DNA of 64,000 nt from Nonlabens xylanidelens (lineage in GTDB: Bacteria > Bacteroidota > Bacteroidia > Flavobacteriales > Flavobacteriaceae): positions 62,001 to 126,000 of the forward strand of contig NZ_PTJE01000001.1 in NCBI RefSeq assembly GCF_002934445.1, read 5' to 3'. This document shows, one piece after another, positions 5,242 through 64,000 of the stretch (position 1 is its first letter; every line of letters begins with the position of its first letter). A program made the position numbers and the translations under genes. The notes beneath the pieces were generated by a model, which searched no databases, was not told where the DNA came from, and saw only the letters and a program-made list of their open reading frames with translations.

Positions 5242-6017
5242 TAGTTCGATATTGTAGTGAATAAACTGTTTGAATTTTGAAGCATATCTGGCAATCCTAC
5301 ACATACTTTTTGCACGCCATTTTGAATAGCATAAAAACAATTTTGCATTTTAGGCAACATTCCGTCGGCAATAATCCCTTGAGATTTTAAATCTTGATAA
5401 TTTTCTAAATTGATATTCTTAATTACAGAATCTTCATCTGTAATATTTTGTAAAACTCCTTTTTTCTCAAAACAGTAATACAGTTCTGTTTCATAGTTTT
5501 TGGCTAGTTCGATAGCTAGTTCTGCAGCTAGAGTATCTGCATTTGTATTTAATAATTGACCATGTCCGTCGTGCGTTATGGCGCAAAATACTGGAGTACG
5601 CTTTCGCGAAAGCAACACCTCAACAATCTCTGTATCTACTTTTACAACATCTCCTACATAACCAAAATCTACCTCTTCTACATCTCGTTTTTTAGACAAA
5701 ATAGTATTCCCATCAGCTCCTGTAAATCCTATAGCATTACACTTCTTAGCTTGTAACTTTGCTACAATGGTTTTATTTACTTTACCAGCATAAACCATAG
5801 TGGCAATGTCCAGTGTTTCTGAATCGGTGATGCGACGACCATCGATCATTTTTACCTCAAGATTCATTTTATGAGCTAATTCTGTAGCTACTTTTCCACC
5901 TCCATGAATAAGAACTTTAGGCCCTTTTATCGCAGTAAATGTGGTTAAGAAATCATCTAGTGCTTGCTGATCATTGATAATGTGCCCACCTATTTTTATA
6001 ACTTTAAGCTGTTCCAT
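5241..6017 (-). CDS. argB: N-acylglutamate kinase
   Basis: The 258-residue amino acid kinase fold phosphorylates N-acetyl- or N-succinylglutamate. It starts with VIKIGGHI, the phosphate-binding Gly-rich segment, followed by LIHGGGKVATEL. N-terminal extensions that carry arginine feedback sites in other phyla are absent. TAATG couplings join it to argF upstream and argE downstream. A copy of the dispersed palindrome lies at 5600-5613 and encodes LLSRKRTP within a variable segment of the protein. Confidence 0.95.
   Translation of the reverse strand: MEQLKVIKIGGHIINDQQALDDFLTTFTAIKGPKVLIHGGGKVATELAHKMNLEVKMIDGRRITDSETLDIATMVYAGKVNKTIVAKLQAKKCNAIGFTGADGNTILSKKRDVEEVDFGYVGDVVKVDTEIVEVLLSRKRTPVFCAITHDGHGQLLNTNADTLAAELAIELAKNYETELYYCFEKKGVLQNITDEDSVIKNINLENYQDLKSQGIIADGMLPKMQNCFYAIQNGVQKVCVGLPDMLQNSNSLFTTISN
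5600..5613. repeat. dispersed palindrome copy 1 (14-bp core, in argB)
   Basis: GCTTTCGCGAAAGC, lacking the terminal matching G at one end of the 16-bp consensus; encodes LSRKR in argB. Confidence 0.85.
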
Positions 6018-54726: not shown

Positions 54727-56823
54727 ATGGAACATTTCTTAATCAACTCTACAGCTTGCTTGTTTACTTTATGGTTAGCTTACAAGCTTTTAATAGAAAA
54801 TACTTCATGGCATACTTTTAAAAGGTTCTATTTGATAGGTGCACTTATCATATCGTTGATCATACCTTTTATAGTTGTCAAAACTGTAATTATACCTATG
54901 GAAGAAATTCCATTTGTAAATTATAGTCCTCTAGTACTAACAGAAACTATGGTAGATCAGCCTAGTTTTGAGATCAATTGGTTTTATGTATTCAGTGGTA
55001 TTTACGTTATAGGTGTTGCAATTATGCTGTGGCGTTTTGGCAAGAATTTGAGCTCTTTTAGAATCCAACAAGAAGATGAGATCAGTTCTTACAAAGCTTA
55101 TCAACTTATTTTGCGCAATCAACTGACTATACCGCATTCATTTCTCAAGCGCATTTTTATTTCAAAGAAAGACCATGAATCCAACAACTTACCCACGGTT
55201 ATTCTAGAACATGAAAAAGCGCATTTAGATCAAAAGCACTCACTAGACATACTATTTATTGAGCTGCTTTTAATTGTCCTATGGTTCAACCCATTGTTAT
55301 ACATCATCAGGTATTCCATAAAGCTGAATCATGAATTCCTTGCAGACAGCGCTGTTTTAAACCAAGGAATCTCTACGGTATCCTATCAAGAGGTTTTATT
55401 AAAACATGCTACCACTAGCTACCAACAGGCGATGGCAAACACGTTTACATTTCCTATCATCAAAAAAAGATTTAATATCATGAAAACACATACATCAAAT
55501 ACCAGCCTAGTCCTAAGAAGTCTAGCGCTTATACCTATTCTTGCCTTACTTATTATAAGTTGTGGTAAGGAAGAAACCGAATTTCAAGAAATCGAAGAAA
55601 TTGTAATCGTAGAAGACGATTCAAACAAAAAGTACATTATAGTAGATCCTAACGATCCTGAAGGTAAAATCGTCATAAACGGAGAACCTCATTACTATAA
55701 GATCAATGGTGATCAAATAGATATTTATAACTCCTTGGATGAGCTTCAAGATTTTGAAAGTCAAGGTTATGAAATAAGAAGAACAGATGAAGAGATAGAG
55801 ATCATTGAAGTTCTTGAAAATGTAACTTCTAAAGACATTGAAGAATATAATTTTCAAGCAAAAAAGCATCAAAAATTTATAGAAGAAAAAGGCCACGTAG
55901 TAGTGTTTAAAGAAGACACAAAACGCATGCAACTTATTTTTAATTCTATGAATGACCAGCAAAAAGCAGAAAATGAACCATGGCCTTATTTATATTGGGA
56001 TAATGATATGACTCCAGGAGATATTCCTCCACCGCCGCCGCCAGCTTCTCCGTCTGAAGATCACGGATATATAAAAGTAGATGGTAGAATTCACTATTAT
56101 ACCTTAAAAAATAATGAAAAGGCTTTTTATGATCGCTGGGGAAATAAGATAGATGTGAAGGATAAAACCGTAGAATATCTAGATCAAAAAGATTTACCGC
56201 CGCCACCGCCACCTGCAAATCCTATGGATTATATAAAAAACTCTGGTGATAATATGAACTATTACATTAATAACATAAAAGTTACCAAAGAGAAGGCAAA
56301 AGAATTCATAGAAAAAAACGGAAACAAAGGAGTACAGATCATGCCAGTCAATGGAGTGAATTCTTTGAAAATGTATTTTAATGAAAATCACCCAGATTAT
56401 GATTTTAAAAGTACCAGTAACGATACTATAACATGGGTAAAAGATTTTGATAAAGGATATAGTGCTCAACAAAAAGCGCAAGAAGTAAATGAATGGGTTA
56501 AAAGCATATATAAGAAAGATAAAAAAGCAGTCAAAGGTAGCACATGGGAAGATGTAGAAAAACATTTAAAAGAAGGGTCTTCAAAAAGTGAAACCGCCCA
56601 AACATTAATAGGTGACCCTGTTGATATTATAAACATTCATAAAGATAAATACGATTATTATGTGGATGGTAGAATAAAGAGTCATGAAGACGCACTATTT
56701 ATCATTTTAAAAAATGACAACTGGAAAATTTATCTAGACAAAATTAGTGATAAAGAAGTCATAATGATTTATACTTATGATGCAGCTATGGGACCAAAAG
56801 ATATTTTTACGAGGGGTTGCTAG
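54727..56823 (+). CDS. BlaR1/M56-family membrane metalloprotease-like sensor
   Basis: The 698-residue protein has membrane helices at about 5-22, 36-56, 86-103, 173-195 and 262-278. The zinc motif HEKAH (162-166) follows VILE, with a downstream Glu candidate near ELLLIVLWFNPLL. A large extracytoplasmic part follows, acidic and repetitive, with two Pro-rich linkers (PPPPPPASP and PPPPPPANP) and related HYY/Y-x-K repeats. No penicillin-binding sensor domain is seen, so the signal is not a classical beta-lactam one. It likely cleaves the BlaI-type repressor upon an envelope signal, by analogy. Confidence 0.85.
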   Translation: MEHFLINSTACLFTLWLAYKLLIENTSWHTFKRFYLIGALIISLIIPFIVVKTVIIPMEEIPFVNYSPLVLTETMVDQPSFEINWFYVFSGIYVIGVAIMLWRFGKNLSSFRIQQEDEISSYKAYQLILRNQLTIPHSFLKRIFISKKDHESNNLPTVILEHEKAHLDQKHSLDILFIELLLIVLWFNPLLYIIRYSIKLNHEFLADSAVLNQGISTVSYQEVLLKHATTSYQQAMANTFTFPIIKKRFNIMKTHTSNTSLVLRSLALIPILALLIISCGKEETEFQEIEEIVIVEDDSNKKYIIVDPNDPEGKIVINGEPHYYKINGDQIDIYNSLDELQDFESQGYEIRRTDEEIEIIEVLENVTSKDIEEYNFQAKKHQKFIEEKGHVVVFKEDTKRMQLIFNSMNDQQKAENEPWPYLYWDNDMTPGDIPPPPPPASPSEDHGYIKVDGRIHYYTLKNNEKAFYDRWGNKIDVKDKTVEYLDQKDLPPPPPPANPMDYIKNSGDNMNYYINNIKVTKEKAKEFIEKNGNKGVQIMPVNGVNSLKMYFNENHPDYDFKSTSNDTITWVKDFDKGYSAQQKAQEVNEWVKSIYKKDKKAVKGSTWEDVEKHLKEGSSKSETAQTLIGDPVDIINIHKDKYDYYVDGRIKSHEDALFIILKNDNWKIYLDKISDKEVIMIYTYDAAMGPKDIFTRGC

Positions 56824-56890
56824 TAGATTTAAAAAGTAATTAATAATTAATAGTTAAGATTTAATATTAACTGTAACAATCCACAATTTC

Positions 56891-56930
56891 AAGCGTTTAT
56901 AAAAGACAACCCTTTTATAAACGTTTTTTT
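56891..56930 (+). terminator. terminator after the M56 gene, abutting the DUF4407 start
   Basis: AAGCGTTTATAAAAG/CTTTTATAAACGTTT stem with T run; the last T precedes the DUF4407 ATG directly. Confidence 0.85.
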
Positions 56931-58031
56931 ATGCAATCTTTTTTCATCTTTTGCAGCGGTGCTGATGCTGAGTTACTTGATCAGTGCAGCGCAGGCGAGC
57001 GTAATAAGTATGCCGGTATAGGCGCAACGGTTTTCTTTACCGCACTTATGGCATTTTTTGCAGCCAGTTATGCGCTATTTACCGTTTTTGATAGTTACTG
57101 GATAGCCGGTGCTTTTGGATTGGTTTGGGGTTTATTGATCTTTAATCTGGATCGTTACATTGTTTCTACACTTAAGAAAAGTGATCGCAAAATCAATGAA
57201 TTATGGCAGGCGGCACCTCGTATTGTTTTAGCACTTATTATTGCTGTTGTGATTTCAAAACCTCTTGAATTAAAAATATTTGAGAAAGAAATCGATCAGG
57301 TTCTTCTGGAAGAGAAAAACGCGATGACCTTAAATAATCAAGAGCAAGTTGCTAGTTTATTTGCTGTTGAGGAGTCCGCTTTCGCGAAAGCGATACAAGA
57401 ATTAAAATCTGAAATCACCACAAAAGAAGCCGAAGTAGAAGCCTTATACTCCACGTATATTACAGAAGCCGAAGGAACATCTGGAACTAACAAACTAGGA
57501 AAAGGACCGGTTTACAAGGAGAAACGAGAAAAGCATGATGCTGCTATGGCAGAACTTAAAGAACTAAAAGCTTCAAATGCCGATAAAATAGCGGCCATAG
57601 AATTACAACTAGCCGACTTAAACACTAAAGAAACGGTACAACTAGCCGCATCACAACCGATCATAGAAAACGTAGACGGACTCATGGCGCGTATTGAAGC
57701 CTTAAATAAATTGCCTTTTATCACATCATTTTTTATCTTCTTACTGTTTCTAGCCATAGAAACATCTCCTATCATTGCCAAATTATTATCCCCTAGAGGT
57801 GAGTATGATTACAAATATGCAGAGCGAGAAGATCTCGTTATATCATGGGTAACACAACAAAAGCAACAGCAAACCGTACTTACACAAACTGATAAAGAAT
57901 TAAATAACCGAGTCTATAAAGACATCGCAGACGAGGACGAACTCTATACCTACAAAAAGAAAATAGCAAGAGAACTCATGCAAAAACAAGCCGATGCTTT
58001 CTATAAAAAACAGAATGGAATTTTAGGGTAA
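56931..58031 (+). CDS. DUF4407 membrane protein
   Basis: The 366-residue protein has N-terminal FFIFCSGADAELLDQCSAGERNKYAGIGATVFFTALMAFFAASYALF, typical of DUF4407, three early membrane helices (about 28-48, 52-70, 90-106), a long Lys/Glu/Ala coiled coil (about 115-250) and a fourth helix (about 258-278). The function of DUF4407 is unknown. The ATG at 56931 follows directly on a terminator T run, without room for a ribosome-binding site. The palindrome encodes AFAKA in the coiled-coil part (about residue 150). Confidence 0.82.
   Translation: MQSFFIFCSGADAELLDQCSAGERNKYAGIGATVFFTALMAFFAASYALFTVFDSYWIAGAFGLVWGLLIFNLDRYIVSTLKKSDRKINELWQAAPRIVLALIIAVVISKPLELKIFEKEIDQVLLEEKNAMTLNNQEQVASLFAVEESAFAKAIQELKSEITTKEAEVEALYSTYITEAEGTSGTNKLGKGPVYKEKREKHDAAMAELKELKASNADKIAAIELQLADLNTKETVQLAASQPIIENVDGLMARIEALNKLPFITSFFIFLLFLAIETSPIIAKLLSPRGEYDYKYAEREDLVISWVTQQKQQQTVLTQTDKELNNRVYKDIADEDELYTYKKKIARELMQKQADAFYKKQNGILG
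57377..57392. repeat. dispersed palindrome copy 15 (in DUF4407 gene)
   Basis: Perfect 16-mer; encodes SAFAKAI. Confidence 0.9.
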
Positions 58032-58151
58032 AAGATTGGAGATTAACGATATCTGATTTTTGATTTGTCATTCCGCTGCAGAGCAGAATCGCTATAAATA
58101 AATCTCGATTCCTGAATCTAATTTCTTGAATCTTCTTTAGAATTCAGCTTC

Positions 58152-59180
58152 TTACACAATCCATCCATTCTCACGAGCGTGAGTAACGGCTTCTTTAGAT
58201 TCTTTTACTAATAACATAGGACATATGGTAAAACCGTCGGCAATGGATTTTACTCTCAACATTTTCTTTTTGTGATCTACAGACCTTAAATAAATAGCCA
58301 TTATACGATCAGGAAATTGTTGTGCGACGTCTTTATAATAATCTGCATCGTGCTCTCCACTATCACCTATAAGAATAAACTTCATATGTGGATAGTGTTT
58401 TAAGATATTGATAAGTTCGTGCTCTTTATGAGGTCGTTTTAATTTGGGCGTTCTATCCCATGGAGTCGGAAAATCTCGCAATAAAATAGGTCCTTTAGGA
58501 AACCCATGAAAGTCAAGAAATTTCTCTAGGTATTTGTATAAATTCCATGGACTATTACTCAAATAGAACATTGGGTTTTGATCGTTACTTGACGAGCCTC
58601 TATGTAATAATTGATAAAAACTAGCAGCACCTTTTAAGGGTAAACGACGGTCATAATTCTTAAAAAAGGTATTAAAAGCCACTCGCATTTTAAGAAAACT
58701 AGTCACACCAGTATGCATTATAGTGTCGTCTATATCACTTATAACTCCATAAGCCGCAGTTTCTAGAGGTATTAATGACTCTCCAGAGAATTTATTTATT
58801 TTGAGACGTTTTTGTCGTTTCGCTTTCGCAAAAGCGGAATTATCTTCATCAAAACTAACCGTAAAGGATAAGTATCCTTCTTTATCTGTTAATGCATCAA
58901 GGTCTATATCAGTTTTAATATTGAAGAGAAAATAGCCTTCGTGGTCTGCTTTTACTTCAAAAAACTTACCGTTAGGCAAAGTTAATTTTACCTGAGCATT
59001 TCTTATCTCATCTGTAGCAAAAGTACGCCAGGTATTACGCAGCGTCTGATACAAGGTCTGTTGTTCATAATGTTTTAATGGCTGGTCTTCTAGCGCGCGA
59101 CCACGTATATACAAATGGTTTGCACCACTATACGTACGATAAATGTCGAGAATCCAAGGATCACGTTTAAAAATTGCCAT
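58152..59180 (-). CDS. App1-family (DUF2183) phosphatase
   Basis: The 342-residue protein has an N-terminal beta-sandwich domain (about 1-135) and a C-terminal HAD-like catalytic domain with DIDDT (149-153), a DxDxT active site. App1 catalytic domains act on phosphatidic acid in fungi; a phospholipid or phosphoprotein substrate is possible here. The near-perfect palindrome encodes SAFAKA at residues 115-120, in the linker before the phosphatase domain. Confidence 0.85.
   Translation of the reverse strand: MAIFKRDPWILDIYRTYSGANHLYIRGRALEDQPLKHYEQQTLYQTLRNTWRTFATDEIRNAQVKLTLPNGKFFEVKADHEGYFLFNIKTDIDLDALTDKEGYLSFTVSFDEDNSAFAKAKRQKRLKINKFSGESLIPLETAAYGVISDIDDTIMHTGVTSFLKMRVAFNTFFKNYDRRLPLKGAASFYQLLHRGSSSNDQNPMFYLSNSPWNLYKYLEKFLDFHGFPKGPILLRDFPTPWDRTPKLKRPHKEHELINILKHYPHMKFILIGDSGEHDADYYKDVAQQFPDRIMAIYLRSVDHKKKMLRVKSIADGFTICPMLLVKESKEAVTHARENGWIV
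58821..58836. repeat. dispersed palindrome copy 16 (one mismatch, in App1 gene)
   Basis: CGCTTTCGCAAAAGCG, one G to A change in the centre; encodes SAFAKAK. Confidence 0.8.
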
Positions 59181-59416: not shown

Positions 59417-59512
59417 ATTTTGATTTTAAGAGAAATGACAAAATTAAGAAATAAAGCCTAGTAAGGAAAACTAGCTTATCTTATTACTTATGATAAATAG
59501 CACTCTATATGA

Positions 59513-59561
59513 AACTTTAAAAGCAAGGTAATAGCATATCTAACACCTTGCTTTTAAAGTT
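59513..59561. terminator. terminator downstream of the radical SAM gene
   Basis: 17-bp stem (59513-59529 with 59545-59561) ending in AACTTT/AAAGTT; the flanking T tracts are modest. Confidence 0.65.
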
Positions 59562-59578
59562 TTTATTACATTATTGTG

Positions 59579-60538
59579 TTATTCAACAACGTCTGCCATG
59601 ACGCCATCTTTATTGAAGATTTTATCTTTATTACATTTTAAGAAATGATCACAGTATAGACAGATATTTTTAAGTTCTTCATTCTTAATTTTTGCATCTG
59701 CTTCAGAGACACCTAGTTTTAATCCCATTTTAAGTGGGTCACCTTCATTAAGCATTTTAAAAACAAAGTTCTTACTTGCTCTATCCAGTACCTCACTCAC
59801 CTTTTGTTTACGTGCGTCTCCCATAGGGAAATGTGTACCTGGACAACATGGATTAATGCGCCATAACTGTATGCTTATCTCGTTAGGTATATCTTCATGA
59901 CCACCTAAGAAGTTTCTTGCACCACTTAAAATGGTACAAAAGTTATGCTCAGGATCCTTCATCCATATATCGTGCTTCATCGCTTTACCTCTGGCCCAGT
60001 TACCACCTAACCACATTTCTTCACTAGCACCCCAATAACCCCAACTTAAAGGATTTTCGGCTAGATAATGACCACCTTCTATAAGCGGATCTTTTTCTGT
60101 ACCGACCACACCACAAGTATCAAAAATATCTGCTAGCTCCATTAATCTACCACCAGCTTTTTTATGGTATCTATCTATAGATGCGATGTCAAATCTAGAA
60201 ACACCCTTATCTATAAGGACTTGTAACTTTGCAGGATTTAATAAATCACCGTTAGTCTGGATCATTACTTGGGTCTTACCTTTATACTTGTCTTGGATTT
60301 TATCAAGAATAGCATGTAGCAGTTTAATATCGGCTAGAGGCTCACCACCACTTAAGATAATACGCTCTATATGGTCTGGCATATTATCGATTATCGCCAT
60401 ACAGTCTTCTTGAGATATACGTTTCCCAAATGGACTTGAATCATTATAACAGTGGTCACAATCGTCATTACACAGCTGTGTAAACACCCAGTATAAGGAC
60501 TGTAAATGGTTAAAATCTTTTTTAATTTCTGTCATCAT
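59579..60538 (-). CDS. radical SAM enzyme, last gene of an ABC transporter operon
   Basis: The 319-residue protein has CNDDCDHC (CxxxCxxC at Cys23, 27, 30) for the SAM [4Fe-4S] cluster, LSGGEPL and QTNGD as SAM-binding elements. Extra cysteines in NPCCPGTHF (about 230) and CLYCDHFLKC (about 293-302) are typical of SPASM- or twitch-like auxiliary clusters. I do not recognise the substrate. It ends an operon with a YnjBCD-like transporter and may modify the imported compound. Confidence 0.78.
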   Translation of the reverse strand: MMTEIKKDFNHLQSLYWVFTQLCNDDCDHCYNDSSPFGKRISQEDCMAIIDNMPDHIERIILSGGEPLADIKLLHAILDKIQDKYKGKTQVMIQTNGDLLNPAKLQVLIDKGVSRFDIASIDRYHKKAGGRLMELADIFDTCGVVGTEKDPLIEGGHYLAENPLSWGYWGASEEMWLGGNWARGKAMKHDIWMKDPEHNFCTILSGARNFLGGHEDIPNEISIQLWRINPCCPGTHFPMGDARKQKVSEVLDRASKNFVFKMLNEGDPLKMGLKLGVSEADAKIKNEELKNICLYCDHFLKCNKDKIFNKDGVMADVVE

Positions 60539-60650
60539 TTTATCTTTTTATAGACTGTTGCTAGCAATCCATTTTCCTCATGTCGAGGTACTCTATCTAT
60601 AAGAAAGAAGTGCCACGGTCTTTCTTTATTTTAATTGTTTTAAATCGCTA

Positions 60651-61376
60651 TTAATTAAACTGTTTCCAGAAAGCAGCCTCTTGTTGTGCACCGCTATCTA
60701 CGTCATCATAAAAATCTTGCTTAGATTCATATCTTTTAAAATGACCTAATTCTATTTTACCTATATGATCTCCCATAGTCAGTGCTTCTTTTAAATCATG
60801 AGTAATGAATATAGAAGTAAGCTTCATTTTCTTAGAGAGCTTTTTAAATAGTTCTTGCATTTGCACACGAGTCTCAGCATCTAGCGCTCCAAATGGCTCG
60901 TCTAACAGCAATACTTTGGGCTCAATGATTAATGCTCTTGCAAATGACACACGCTGTCTCTGTCCACCAGAAAGCTGGTGAGGCATTTTCTCTGCATGTT
61001 CTTCTAGACCTATTTCTGCAAGCATGTGCTCCACCTTAGTTTTAATCACATCTGGTGATTGCTTACGTATCTTTAAACCAAATGCTATGTTCTCTGAAAC
61101 ATTAAGGTGAGGAAATAGCAAGGGTTCTTGGTATAGATAAACTATGTTTCTTTTATTAGGTGGCGTGTCGTTCATCCGCTTTCGCGAAAGCGAAATAGTA
61201 CCATCATCTTCTTTTTCTAATCCAGCTAATATTTTTAATAAAGTCGTTTTACCACTACCTGATTTTCCTAAAACACTGAGCACCTCATGTTCTTGCAGCA
61301 TAAAACTAACGTTGTGTAAAACGGTCTCACTGCCGAAGCTTTTGGTAATATTATCTATGTGTAAAAGTGGTTCCAA
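60651..61376 (-). CDS. ABC transporter ATPase, YnjD-like
   Basis: The 241-residue ATPase has Walker A GKSGSGKTT (37-45), signature LSGGQ (135-139), Walker B LLLDE (156-160) and the H-loop FITHD. It energises the two permeases encoded upstream; 5 bp separate it from the nearer. The palindrome at 61178-61193 encodes LSRKR (62-67) in a loop after Walker A. Confidence 0.9.
   Translation of the reverse strand: MEPLLHIDNITKSFGSETVLHNVSFMLQEHEVLSVLGKSGSGKTTLLKILAGLEKEDDGTISLSRKRMNDTPPNKRNIVYLYQEPLLFPHLNVSENIAFGLKIRKQSPDVIKTKVEHMLAEIGLEEHAEKMPHQLSGGQRQRVSFARALIIEPKVLLLDEPFGALDAETRVQMQELFKKLSKKMKLTSIFITHDLKEALTMGDHIGKIELGHFKRYESKQDFYDDVDSGAQQEAAFWKQFN
61178..61193. repeat. dispersed palindrome copy 17 (in ABC ATPase gene)
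   Basis: Perfect 16-mer; encodes LSRKR, the same frame as the argB copy. Confidence 0.9.
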
Positions 61377-61381
61377 TGGTC

Positions 61382-62149
61382 TTAAATTACGGTTTCTGTG
61401 GCAAATATGTATCTCTTATTGATCCATATAAGAATCATGGGTGGTAGTATTAATAAACAACTCGCTAGTGCTGCATAAAATATATTTGCCTCATTTACAA
61501 AGCTGAAAACGCGCACCGTTAAGGTTTGCACGCTTCCTACTCCTATTAAGTTAGTGAGCCCAAATTCAAACCACGATACTAGAAATGTTTGAAAAAAACA
61601 TAGTAACAATGCGTTTTTTGAAATGGGTAATAAAACATTTTTAAACGTTTGCCAGCTACTGCTGCCTAATGTTTTAGATAGCTCTTCTATCGCTCTAGTT
61701 TTATGATTCCAGAAGTTATTGAGAATAATAACTCCAAAGGGATATGCTATAAAAAACTGCGCTAGCAACACACCACTCACGTTACCTGATATACCAGCAT
61801 ATATAAAAAAGAAATGTAGTGTCGCTGCCAGTATAACTGGCGATAACACATAAGGAATGTATGCCAGCAGCATTAATTTATTGCGGTATTTACTCAATGC
61901 GATATGTTTACTCGTTATAAAAGCAAGCGCAGTAGTTACCGTTGCCACTAGAATAGAAATACCTAGAGACAAGAAAAATGTTTGCAATAGTTTACTATCT
62001 GACTTTTGTAAAAACTCCCAGTTTTCTAGGGACAGTGATTGCGGTAACAATTCTGGATACGGCCAGTTGCGTCCTAGACTAAGTAATAGCAGGAATGCGA
62101 TCGGGAAAAAGATCGATAGAATAAATAATATTTGGAGGGCTTTCTTCAT
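61382..62149 (-). CDS. ABC transporter permease, second
   Basis: The 255-residue protein has about six membrane helices and an EAA-type loop (ELSKTLGSSSWQTFKNVLLP). It pairs with the other permease to form the channel. Its start overlaps the upstream permease stop (TAATG). Confidence 0.88.
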   Translation of the reverse strand: MKKALQILFILSIFFPIAFLLLLSLGRNWPYPELLPQSLSLENWEFLQKSDSKLLQTFFLSLGISILVATVTTALAFITSKHIALSKYRNKLMLLAYIPYVLSPVILAATLHFFFIYAGISGNVSGVLLAQFFIAYPFGVIILNNFWNHKTRAIEELSKTLGSSSWQTFKNVLLPISKNALLLCFFQTFLVSWFEFGLTNLIGVGSVQTLTVRVFSFVNEANIFYAALASCLLILPPMILIWINKRYIFATETVI

Positions 62150-63009
62150 CAGTTTTTTTCTGGATTAAAGAATGCTGGTCTCGTTTTATAAACTACCGCT
62201 ATTAAGGTTGCTATTAAAAGTATATAAATAACTGACACCGCATATGCCTGTGGTATGTCTGCCAGATTAAATTTTTGAAGTTTTTGAATTATAAAAACCG
62301 ATAGCATAGATGGATCTTGTCTACCTAACAATAGCGGTATTTCATAAGTTCCCATCACAAATATGAGAAACAACATAATTGTAAAAGCACTCTTTTTTAA
62401 TAAGATAGGTACTATTATTCTGGTAGTGATTTGATTTTTCTTTGCTCCTAAGGTTTGAGCAAGTGCTTTAAGTTCTGGAATGCGCTCGTTTTGATATAAA
62501 TTAGAATATAAAATGATAAAAAACGGCGTGATCAGTAGGCACAAGCTGAATATAATTGCAACTCCATAAGCATCATTAGTCCAGTCTGGAAACTGACTTA
62601 GGTCATCTATCCATCCTAAATTAAAAATGACACGACTTATAAAACCACTTTTAGAAAGCAACTGAAAGCTAAAAAATGCCATTACAATAGCAGGAAATGC
62701 TAGTGGCAAATAGGTCACATAAGACAGCAGTCCTTTATATAAATTCTTAGTCCACGAGATTACTATCCATAAAGAAAAGAACAACGAAGTAGTCATTACT
62801 ACTGCAGCTATAAAAAGACTGAAACCTAAGGACTTCCAGAACTCTGTAGCTAGTAGTGTTTTCTCCCAATACTCTGTTGTAAAACCTTCACTTAAAATAC
62901 CTGTAAGCCCAAAACTATACAACAAAGCATATCCAAACCCTAAGAGAACAGGCACTGCTGCAAATAGGATAAAAATAGTAATGGAGATATGTTTTGACTT
63001 AAATTTCAA
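62149..63009 (-). CDS. ABC transporter permease, first
   Basis: The 286-residue protein has about six membrane helices and an EAA loop (ELKALAQTLGAKKNQITTRIIVP). In E. coli YnjC the two permease halves are fused; here they are separate genes. It follows the binding-protein gene by 126 bp. Confidence 0.87.
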   Translation of the reverse strand: MKFKSKHISITIFILFAAVPVLLGFGYALLYSFGLTGILSEGFTTEYWEKTLLATEFWKSLGFSLFIAAVVMTTSLFFSLWIVISWTKNLYKGLLSYVTYLPLAFPAIVMAFFSFQLLSKSGFISRVIFNLGWIDDLSQFPDWTNDAYGVAIIFSLCLLITPFFIILYSNLYQNERIPELKALAQTLGAKKNQITTRIIVPILLKKSAFTIMLFLIFVMGTYEIPLLLGRQDPSMLSVFIIQKLQKFNLADIPQAYAVSVIYILLIATLIAVVYKTRPAFFNPEKN

Positions 63010-63135
63010 TATTTTATGTTGCGTTATTATTGTTTAATATGATAAATAAAAAATGCTATTAATTTTGAACAAGAATAAATGAACTGGTAAATAATATACA
63101 CCTATTTAACTTATTCTTAAATTGTATTCTTCTAT

Positions 63136-64000
63136 CTAACTATTTATAATTTCTGTTCTAAAATCTTCGGCTAGTCTTATCATGTACTCAGGTGCTAACT
63201 CTTGAAGTGCTTTTTCTTGAATATCTTTTCTGTTAGGAGCTTGTTTTCTAGAAGGTATGTTTTGAAATTTCTCTTGGAATTCTTGTGATAATCTATCCAA
63301 TTTTAAAACCGTACCGTCACCCCACACATCTGGATTTTGCTTTTCTAATTGTGCCTCTGGCGAGATCATAAAATTAATCATGACCATAGCCGCAGCTTTA
63401 TCTACTGCGTCACTTGCTATACCTAAATAATGACTATTCTGTATGGTACCGAATTCTGGTACATAAGCTCTAGAAGATGCTGCAAAAACACCTTCATTAA
63501 TTTTGTTATCTACCTCAGCATCATTATTACTCATGGTAAACAGCAACTCTCCACTAGCAAACAGCTGGTGCATTTGCGCCACGTTTTGTGGGAATGCCTC
63601 GCCATTTTTCCATAGATAAGGCTGTAATTCTTTAACATAACTCCATAATTGAGCGCTGTACTTATTATACTTTTCTTCATTAAAATCTCCTGCTAGTGCA
63701 TCTTTACCACCAGCGATATCGATTAATAAAGCCTTTAAAAAGGTTAATCCTGTAAAGTGATTATCAAAGGTGAATTTACCTGGGTTTGCTTTTACAAAAT
63801 CAAGTAAATCCTCACGTGATTGAGGTAAATCAGTCACGTTATCACTGTTGTAAATAAGAGTCATTTGCACATTTCCCCAAGGTGTTTCCATGCCATTAAT
63901 AGGTTCTTGAAAATCTGTTCCTATAAATGGGTTATCTAGATCTATGTATTGCGCATTAGGTAATTGATCTACAAATGGACCGTATAAACCTTTAACCTGT
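63136..64000 (-). CDS. ABC substrate-binding protein, YnjB-like (5' end outside window)
   Basis: The C-terminal 287 residues of a type II periplasmic binding protein are present. The reading frame continues without a stop past the window edge; the internal Met at 63891 is not the start. NGMETPWGNVQMTLIYNSD and the closing ALQELAPEYMIRLAEDFR resemble the YnjB family of putative thiamine- or cofactor-like binders. The signal peptide lies outside the window. The ligand is unknown. Confidence 0.82.
   Translation of the reverse strand, partial: QVKGLYGPFVDQLPNAQYIDLDNPFIGTDFQEPINGMETPWGNVQMTLIYNSDNVTDLPQSREDLLDFVKANPGKFTFDNHFTGLTFLKALLIDIAGGKDALAGDFNEEKYNKYSAQLWSYVKELQPYLWKNGEAFPQNVAQMHQLFASGELLFTMSNNDAEVDNKINEGVFAASSRAYVPEFGTIQNSHYLGIASDAVDKAAAMVMINFMISPEAQLEKQNPDVWGDGTVLKLDRLSQEFQEKFQNIPSRKQAPNRKDIQEKALQELAPEYMIRLAEDFRTEIINS

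Follow-up and report, generated by a model that had tools for sequence, protein, structure and literature searches.

A radical SAM enzyme encoded with a YnjB-type importer in Nonlabens xylanidelens and a possible route for riboside uptake in Bacteroidota

Background

The YnjBCD importer of Escherichia coli (ydjXYZ-ynjABCDE), an orphan transporter of the ATP-binding cassette (ABC) type, has no established substrate, and an operon that encodes a relative of it together with a radical S-adenosylmethionine (SAM) enzyme raises the question of what is taken up and what is then done to it. Such an operon lies at the end of the window analysed here, a stretch of 64,000 nucleotides from Nonlabens xylanidelens (G000:C1:62001-126000, contig NZ_PTJE01000001.1; genome of 3.28 Mb, 99.96% complete), and encodes the radical SAM enzyme (hereafter rSAM), an ABC ATPase, two permeases and a YnjB-type solute-binding protein (SBP). 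In an earlier note on this DNA these five genes had been taken for an operon devoted to the uptake and conversion of a small compound. The partner enzymes encoded beside the same importer in other genomes narrow the cargo to something riboside-like, a proposal that is testable on a single binding protein.

For heme, a link between import and a radical SAM enzyme is already known: according to PMC10035031 and PMC10404700, heme uptake operons co-encode a radical SAM enzyme, HutW/HmuW, that breaks down the imported compound. The window operon likewise encodes uptake together with a radical SAM enzyme, but its importer and enzyme belong to other families and no sign of a heme cargo was seen. No description of this combination of genes, of its rSAM family or of its exchange for hydrolase/kinase and ArsS cassettes was found in the papers searched, among which most subscription journals were missing; the papers on YnjB (passing mentions only), arsenosugar transport and TIGR04282/TIGR04283 held no description of the operon.

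Conservation of the operon

Homologues of rSAM were searched for chiefly within the phylum, in samples holding one genome per species, and the neighbourhoods of 19 rSAM loci were called by a simple open reading frame (ORF) finder and BLAST. A YnjBCD-type importer adjoined the rSAM gene at 14 of these loci, which came from five families, and at least 16 of the 19 had a receptor of the TonB-dependent or SusC type; at L039 and L040, YnjB, a fused YnjC-like permease and the ATPase came directly after rSAM. The earlier note had named an rSAM gene unlinked from the transporter in other genomes as the finding that would defeat its proposal, and the linkage stood. The SBP was present in 14 of 18 rSAM genomes versus none of 24 rSAM-negative genomes, the latter mostly picked for having ArsS. 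In the phylum sample rSAM was found in 6 of the 16 YnjB genomes, including the window's own, and the two were associated at p < 1e-6 (Fisher test on conservative counts, uncorrected for relatedness). The distribution of rSAM was patchy, with matches in 6 of 296 order genomes (E 1e-30), and in 9 of 395 phylum and 5 of 299 family genomes (E 1e-20), and no relative was found on the plasmids searched. The nearest named relative was an uncultured Nonlabens sp., whose rSAM was 86% identical (the sole near relative in the contig scan). In two genomes belonging to the same family, the gene directly upstream of rSAM encoded a DUF2452 protein (L036:8589-9059 and L037:10599-11069).

Alternative partner enzymes of the importer

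Most of the YnjB genomes in the phylum sample that lacked rSAM held other enzymes in its place. At four loci (L101, L102, L103 and L104) the importer was followed by a nucleoside hydrolase, with SusCD and a DUF2064 protein, and in L102, L103 and L104 a methylthioribose-kinase-like (MTR-kinase-like) protein joined the hydrolase. An MTAP-like phosphorylase came after the importer in L105, L107, L108, L109 and L110, with the kinase also present in L105, L109 and L110, and importer, hydrolase, kinase and rSAM stood all together in L019 and L020. Two further loci (L112 and L113) held DUF2064, hydrolase, kinase and a TonB receptor sharing 66-67% identity with the one in the window's genome, without importer and rSAM; only there, where the importer was absent, was the N-terminus of the hydrolase signal-peptide-like, as judged by eye. 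A YnjB-type operon in Peptoclostridium acidaminophilum came immediately after a nucleoside hydrolase gene. The rSAM and non-rSAM groups were interleaved in the SBP tree, and in the receptor tree the receptors of hydrolase/kinase cassettes were nested within those of rSAM cassettes with full support.

Ribosides and 5-substituted riboses are the substrates of the nucleoside hydrolase, MTAP-like phosphorylase and MTR kinase families. Since the importer lineage stands beside a hydrolase or an MTAP-like phosphorylase, usually with an MTR-kinase-like protein, its cargo is probably a riboside, and one cargo with several processing routes is the economical reading. The same alternatives are seen in the salvage of 5'-deoxyadenosine and methylthioadenosine (DrdK, MtnK, MTAP), where a phosphorylase is the equivalent of a nucleosidase plus a kinase for 5'-deoxyadenosine (PMC6079011). 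The sister cassettes differ from this salvage in that their enzymes score below the curated cut-offs, with no isomerase or aldolase recognised alongside, and in that they add an outer-membrane receptor and DUF2064.

Relation to ArsS cassettes

The operon also resembled ArsS cassettes (TIGR04167, TIGR04169, TIGR04282, TIGR04283, PNP and rhodanese NF045521), which occupied the same chromosomal slot in congeners, had a DUF2064 partner and, like the window operon, paired a radical SAM enzyme with outer- and inner-membrane transporters. In G863, a genome of the window's genus whose ArsS cassette includes SusCD and a symporter-like gene, the slot read amylase, TIGR04169 (AhpD-like), ArsS, DUF2064, SusC, SusD, sodium-symporter-like, phosphoesterase-like, rhodanese, MetK, MetY and MetX; in the Nonlabens locus L015 the same slot read amylase, DUF2064, TonB receptor, ABC importer, rSAM, rhodanese, MetK, MetY and MetX (MetK, MetY and MetX having been named by eye from their sequences). 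The window rSAM is no ArsS, and a TonB receptor and an ABC importer stand in for SusCD and the symporter. A second genome of the genus, G650, had the ArsS version of the slot as well as an arsenosugar-type ArsM, and in the window's genome the amylase side was held in common with the congeners and the other flank was different. In G700, ArsS directly preceded the DUF2064-receptor-importer-rSAM operon, and rSAM was followed contiguously by rhodanese, TIGR04282, PNP, an OlsE-like hydroxylase, a DUF547-type protein and TIGR04283.

The window's genome retained TIGR04282, PNP, DUF547 and TIGR04283 (C1:962247-965305), had no match to TIGR04167 (ArsS) at E 1e-20 (curated cut-off 300 bits), which both congeners matched, and had no arsenosugar-type ArsM. 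It therefore lacks the pair of ArsM and ArsS by which arsenosugar biosynthesis is recognised in a genome, and an arsenic-only reading was set aside because of this absence. A TIGR04282 gene scored over the cut-off in all 18 rSAM genomes, and in G133 and G651 the kinase lay within about 3 kb of it. ArsS (27 of 296) and rSAM (6 of 296) did not overlap in the order sample, as is expected by chance, so that mutual exclusion was not significant. The arsenosugar name rests on curated model names and on cyanobacterial ArsM/ArsS work as cited in PMC8552651, and arsenic chemistry in these bacteria is unproven. A Flavobacteriaceae locus called arsenosugar biosynthesis carries uptake systems, and in one chromosomal slot ArsS can give way to another radical SAM enzyme that comes with another transporter; this exchange, together with the uptake systems, suggests that an imported compound is the starting material of both the ArsS-type and the rSAM pathways.

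The presumed substrate of ArsS is the ArsM product, yet in G863 (L069) and G700 (L041) ArsS was observed without an arsenosugar-type ArsM. The cassette DUF2064 proteins (that of the window operon at L008 compared with those of L015, L041, L043, L020, L104, L069, L112, L110 and L036) lacked the N-terminal GxxKTRL motif of true TIGR04282, whether or not rSAM adjoined, and had a C-terminal extension usually ending in NKGSP or RAPP plus a few residues.

Identity of the importer and of the radical SAM enzyme

The SBP scored 400.6 bits with NCBIfam NF008633 (PRK11622), whose cut-off is 203, and is a full member of the YnjB family, to which the E. coli SBP also belongs (the model picked out E. coli among the control genomes); no solved structural relative of it was found. 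For the ATPase the nearest curated models were PotA/PhnT/CysA types, none of which exceeded its cut-off. The gene order SBP-permease-ATPase is that of E. coli YnjBCD, but ynjC is one gene of 1536 bp and the window operon has two separate permeases (255 and 286 aa) instead of a single long one of the YnjC type; unfused permeases were general in Bacteroidota and also present in Bacillota/Fusobacteriota. Unlike YnjBCD, the window operon adds outer-membrane receptor, DUF2064 and radical SAM genes, and no ynjA/ynjE-type genes are adjacent in the window's genome. Rhodanese genes came after rSAM in L015, L041 and L042, and E. coli ynjA was no TIGR04169 member, its best model being a YciW-related family, below cut-off. 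Around the YnjB operons of other phyla (L081, which is E. coli, and L125, L126, L129 and L130), genes for CDP-alcohol phosphatidyltransferase, AhpD-like, rhodanese, TVP38 and FAD oxidoreductase proteins recurred, and these families partly recur in ArsS clusters.

The PF04055 score of rSAM (Table 1) exceeded the cut-off of 29.5 bits and the CX3CX2C core was present, placing the enzyme in the radical SAM superfamily. In an alignment of 19 sequences (the window rSAM and 18 homologues 27-85% identical to it) the core cysteines C23, C27 and C30 were invariant, and so, down to 27% identity, were C201, C231, C232, C293 and C296 outside the core, which bears out the extra cysteines to which the earlier note had drawn attention. 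The second cysteine region read NGDVFPCC in L039/L040, the two most distant members; the Gx4C pattern was visible only there, and SPASM-model matches were weak and limited to the C-terminal parts of these two proteins. Because the extra cysteines are invariant and Gx4C occurs in the distant members, one auxiliary [4Fe-4S] cluster, which may be of the SPASM/twitch type, is predicted as likely. No curated family came near its cut-off (best NirJ1, 40.9 bits versus 650, core only), and the enzyme did not fall within the NirJ/AhbD/MoaA types. Sequence searches of the PDB with the single protein and with the 19-sequence profile matched the radical SAM core only, with 34 bits at best. A structure model from a two-sequence alignment (pLDDT 41.6) was not used.

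Proposed pathway and rival explanations

With the gene content, the conserved linkage, the shared transporter lineage, the interchangeable partners and the common slot with ArsS cassettes as described above, we infer a direction of flow, a class of cargo, an order of steps and a radical SAM reaction. The cargo would be a riboside, nucleoside-like or another ribofuranoside and perhaps modified at C5, which the TonB receptor, to judge from its gene, would carry across the outer membrane. Its delivery, intact, to the cytoplasm would then be the task of the binding protein and the ABC importer, as the YnjB-type importer and the location of the hydrolase suggest. There rSAM, bearing a core [4Fe-4S] cluster and, probably, a single auxiliary one, would open or convert the riboside, a role suggested by its position and by its exchange with a hydrolase or phosphorylase and a kinase; in other lineages the same step would fall to a nucleoside hydrolase and an MTR-kinase-like protein, or to an MTAP-like phosphorylase that may or may not be accompanied by this type of kinase. 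From the shared context, the product would probably enter the TIGR04282/PNP/DUF547/TIGR04283 pathway encoded elsewhere in the genome. This scheme of riboside import, conversion by rSAM and delivery to TIGR04282/TIGR04283 is put forward tentatively, with somewhat less than even confidence. The uptake-and-conversion pathway of the earlier note, with its linkage conserved, is still the best reading, but the importer proved not to be exclusive to rSAM.

Several findings weigh against the riboside scheme. The importer was not adjacent to rSAM at five loci (L017, L018, L036, L037 and L038, the last on a short contig), and none of the members has a known ligand or reaction. The hydrolase, kinase and phosphorylase homologues all scored below curated cut-offs, and no recognisable MTR-kinase-like gene was found in the window's genome, so that the downstream route is not demonstrated there. 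The YnjB operons of E. coli, Metabacillus and Rhodobacterales had no adjacent nucleoside enzyme, their neighbours being CDP-alcohol phosphatidyltransferase, AhpD-like, rhodanese or FAD proteins. A bolder form of the scheme, which we consider decidedly unlikely, is that Bacteroidota scavenge 5-deoxy-5-substituted ribosides by a dedicated uptake across both membranes and that their cleavage or remodelling is the work of a new radical SAM family. Such ribosides could be compounds of the arsenosugar type that algae release, or the nucleoside precursors of these compounds; ArsM/ArsS would then be bypassed, external 5-modified ribose would be fed into TIGR04282/TIGR04283, and YnjBCD would serve to transport this class of compounds.

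The main rival, unlikely but to be taken seriously, is that rSAM is a functional counterpart of ArsS, adding 5'-deoxyadenosyl to an imported acceptor such as a methylated arsenical, with PNP, or hydrolase plus kinase, yielding sugar-1-phosphate for TIGR04282/TIGR04283. Both cassettes use one slot in related Nonlabens-type genomes, and both include DUF2064, rhodanese, a receptor in the outer membrane and a transporter in the inner one; the window's genome keeps TIGR04282, PNP and TIGR04283 yet has no ArsS; and the substrate may be imported in G863 and G700, since their ArsS is unaccompanied by an arsenosugar-type ArsM. A ready-made riboside, however, fits better with hydrolase/kinase cassettes that share the receptor or importer and have no adjacent rSAM or ArsS. 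In addition, ArsS and rSAM co-occur in G700 and G909, and their non-overlap in the order sample carries no significance. The same cassettes bear on the improbable alternative that hydrolase or phosphorylase and kinase merely clear 5'-deoxyadenosine, the by-product of rSAM, and that the cargo of the importer is unrelated to ribosides. Disposal of this kind is established elsewhere with MTR-kinase or MTAP-like enzymes (PMC6079011), but was judged less likely here because hydrolase/kinase genes occur without rSAM: they adjoin an importer or receptor without adjacent rSAM/ArsS in L101-L104, L112 and L113. The hydrolase of L112/L113 moreover looks exported, and most rSAM cassettes have no hydrolase/kinase.

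Very improbable is a salvage of the queuosine type, in which a modified tRNA nucleoside would be imported, its base freed by a QueK-like hydrolase and then trimmed by a QueL-like radical SAM lyase; the nucleoside hydrolase QueK and the queuine lyase QueL belong to one salvage route (PMC11130926). L019/L020 do join importer, hydrolase and rSAM, but known queuosine-precursor transporters belong to other families, and the MTR-kinase-like protein, the MTAP-like phosphorylase, DUF2064 and the ArsS context would be left unexplained. We give least credence to rSAM being a maturase of ribosomally synthesized and post-translationally modified peptides (RiPPs) that shares the operon by chance. The best solved relatives of its core include the peptide-modifying YydG, and auxiliary-cluster cysteines, common in RiPP maturases, also count for this explanation. 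No precursor candidate was noticed, although short ORFs were not searched systematically; the loci hold importers and sugar/nucleoside enzymes, and no peptide-maturase model came near its cut-off.

Gene layout and other features of the window

As the earlier note had it, and as coordinates and Pfam matches agreed, the five genes are co-directional on the minus strand with short gaps or overlap (Table 1): rSAM and ATPase are 112 nt apart, ATPase and permease B 5 nt, and permease A and SBP 126 nt, and the permeases overlap by 1 nt. What lay upstream of position 64000, a point that the note had raised, was a TonB-dependent receptor gene after a gap of 69 nt and, 74 nt further, a DUF2064 gene. The five-gene operon was thus incomplete as proposed, and the predicted unit is probably one of seven genes, beginning outside the window with DUF2064 and the receptor. 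A long hairpin starting 17 nt past the rSAM stop codon probably marks the operon end; its role as a terminator is not certain, and the minus strand has no strong T-run there.

Table 1. Features of the operon (window positions unless another coordinate system is named)
Feature	Position	Strand	Evidence
Probable operon end, hairpin	59512..59562	-	RNA fold -27 kcal/mol, z -6.8
Radical SAM enzyme (rSAM), 319 aa	59579..60538	-	PF04055 55.1 bits; 19-sequence alignment
ABC transporter ATPase, 241 aa, TTG start	60651..61376	-	PF00005 (ABC_tran) 124.3 bits
ABC permease B, 255 aa	61382..62149	-	PF00528 (BPD_transp_1)
ABC permease A, 286 aa	62149..63009	-	PF00528 (BPD_transp_1)
YnjB-type SBP, cut by window edge	63136..64000	-	SBP_bac_8; NF008633
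Complete SBP gene, 406 aa	L008:9136-10356 = G000:C1:125136-126356	-	
TonB-dependent receptor, 993 aa	L008:10426-13407 (outside window)	same strand as SBP, upstream	
DUF2064 protein	L008:13482-14192 (outside window)	same strand, upstream	

Beside the operon, the region 54727-59180 of the window encodes a BlaR1-type M56 peptidase protein, a DUF4407 protein and an APP1-type phosphatidate phosphatase, which are apparently unrelated to it. The palindrome GCTTTCGCGAAAGC is highly iterated, with 15 copies in 64 kb (about 1 per 4 kb), where shuffles expect 0. Its copies are at window positions 5600, 9532, 13694, 19767, 26574, 28830, 32886, 34919, 41227, 43546, 47873, 52436, 54120, 57378 and 61178, the last of these falling within the ABC ATPase coding sequence.

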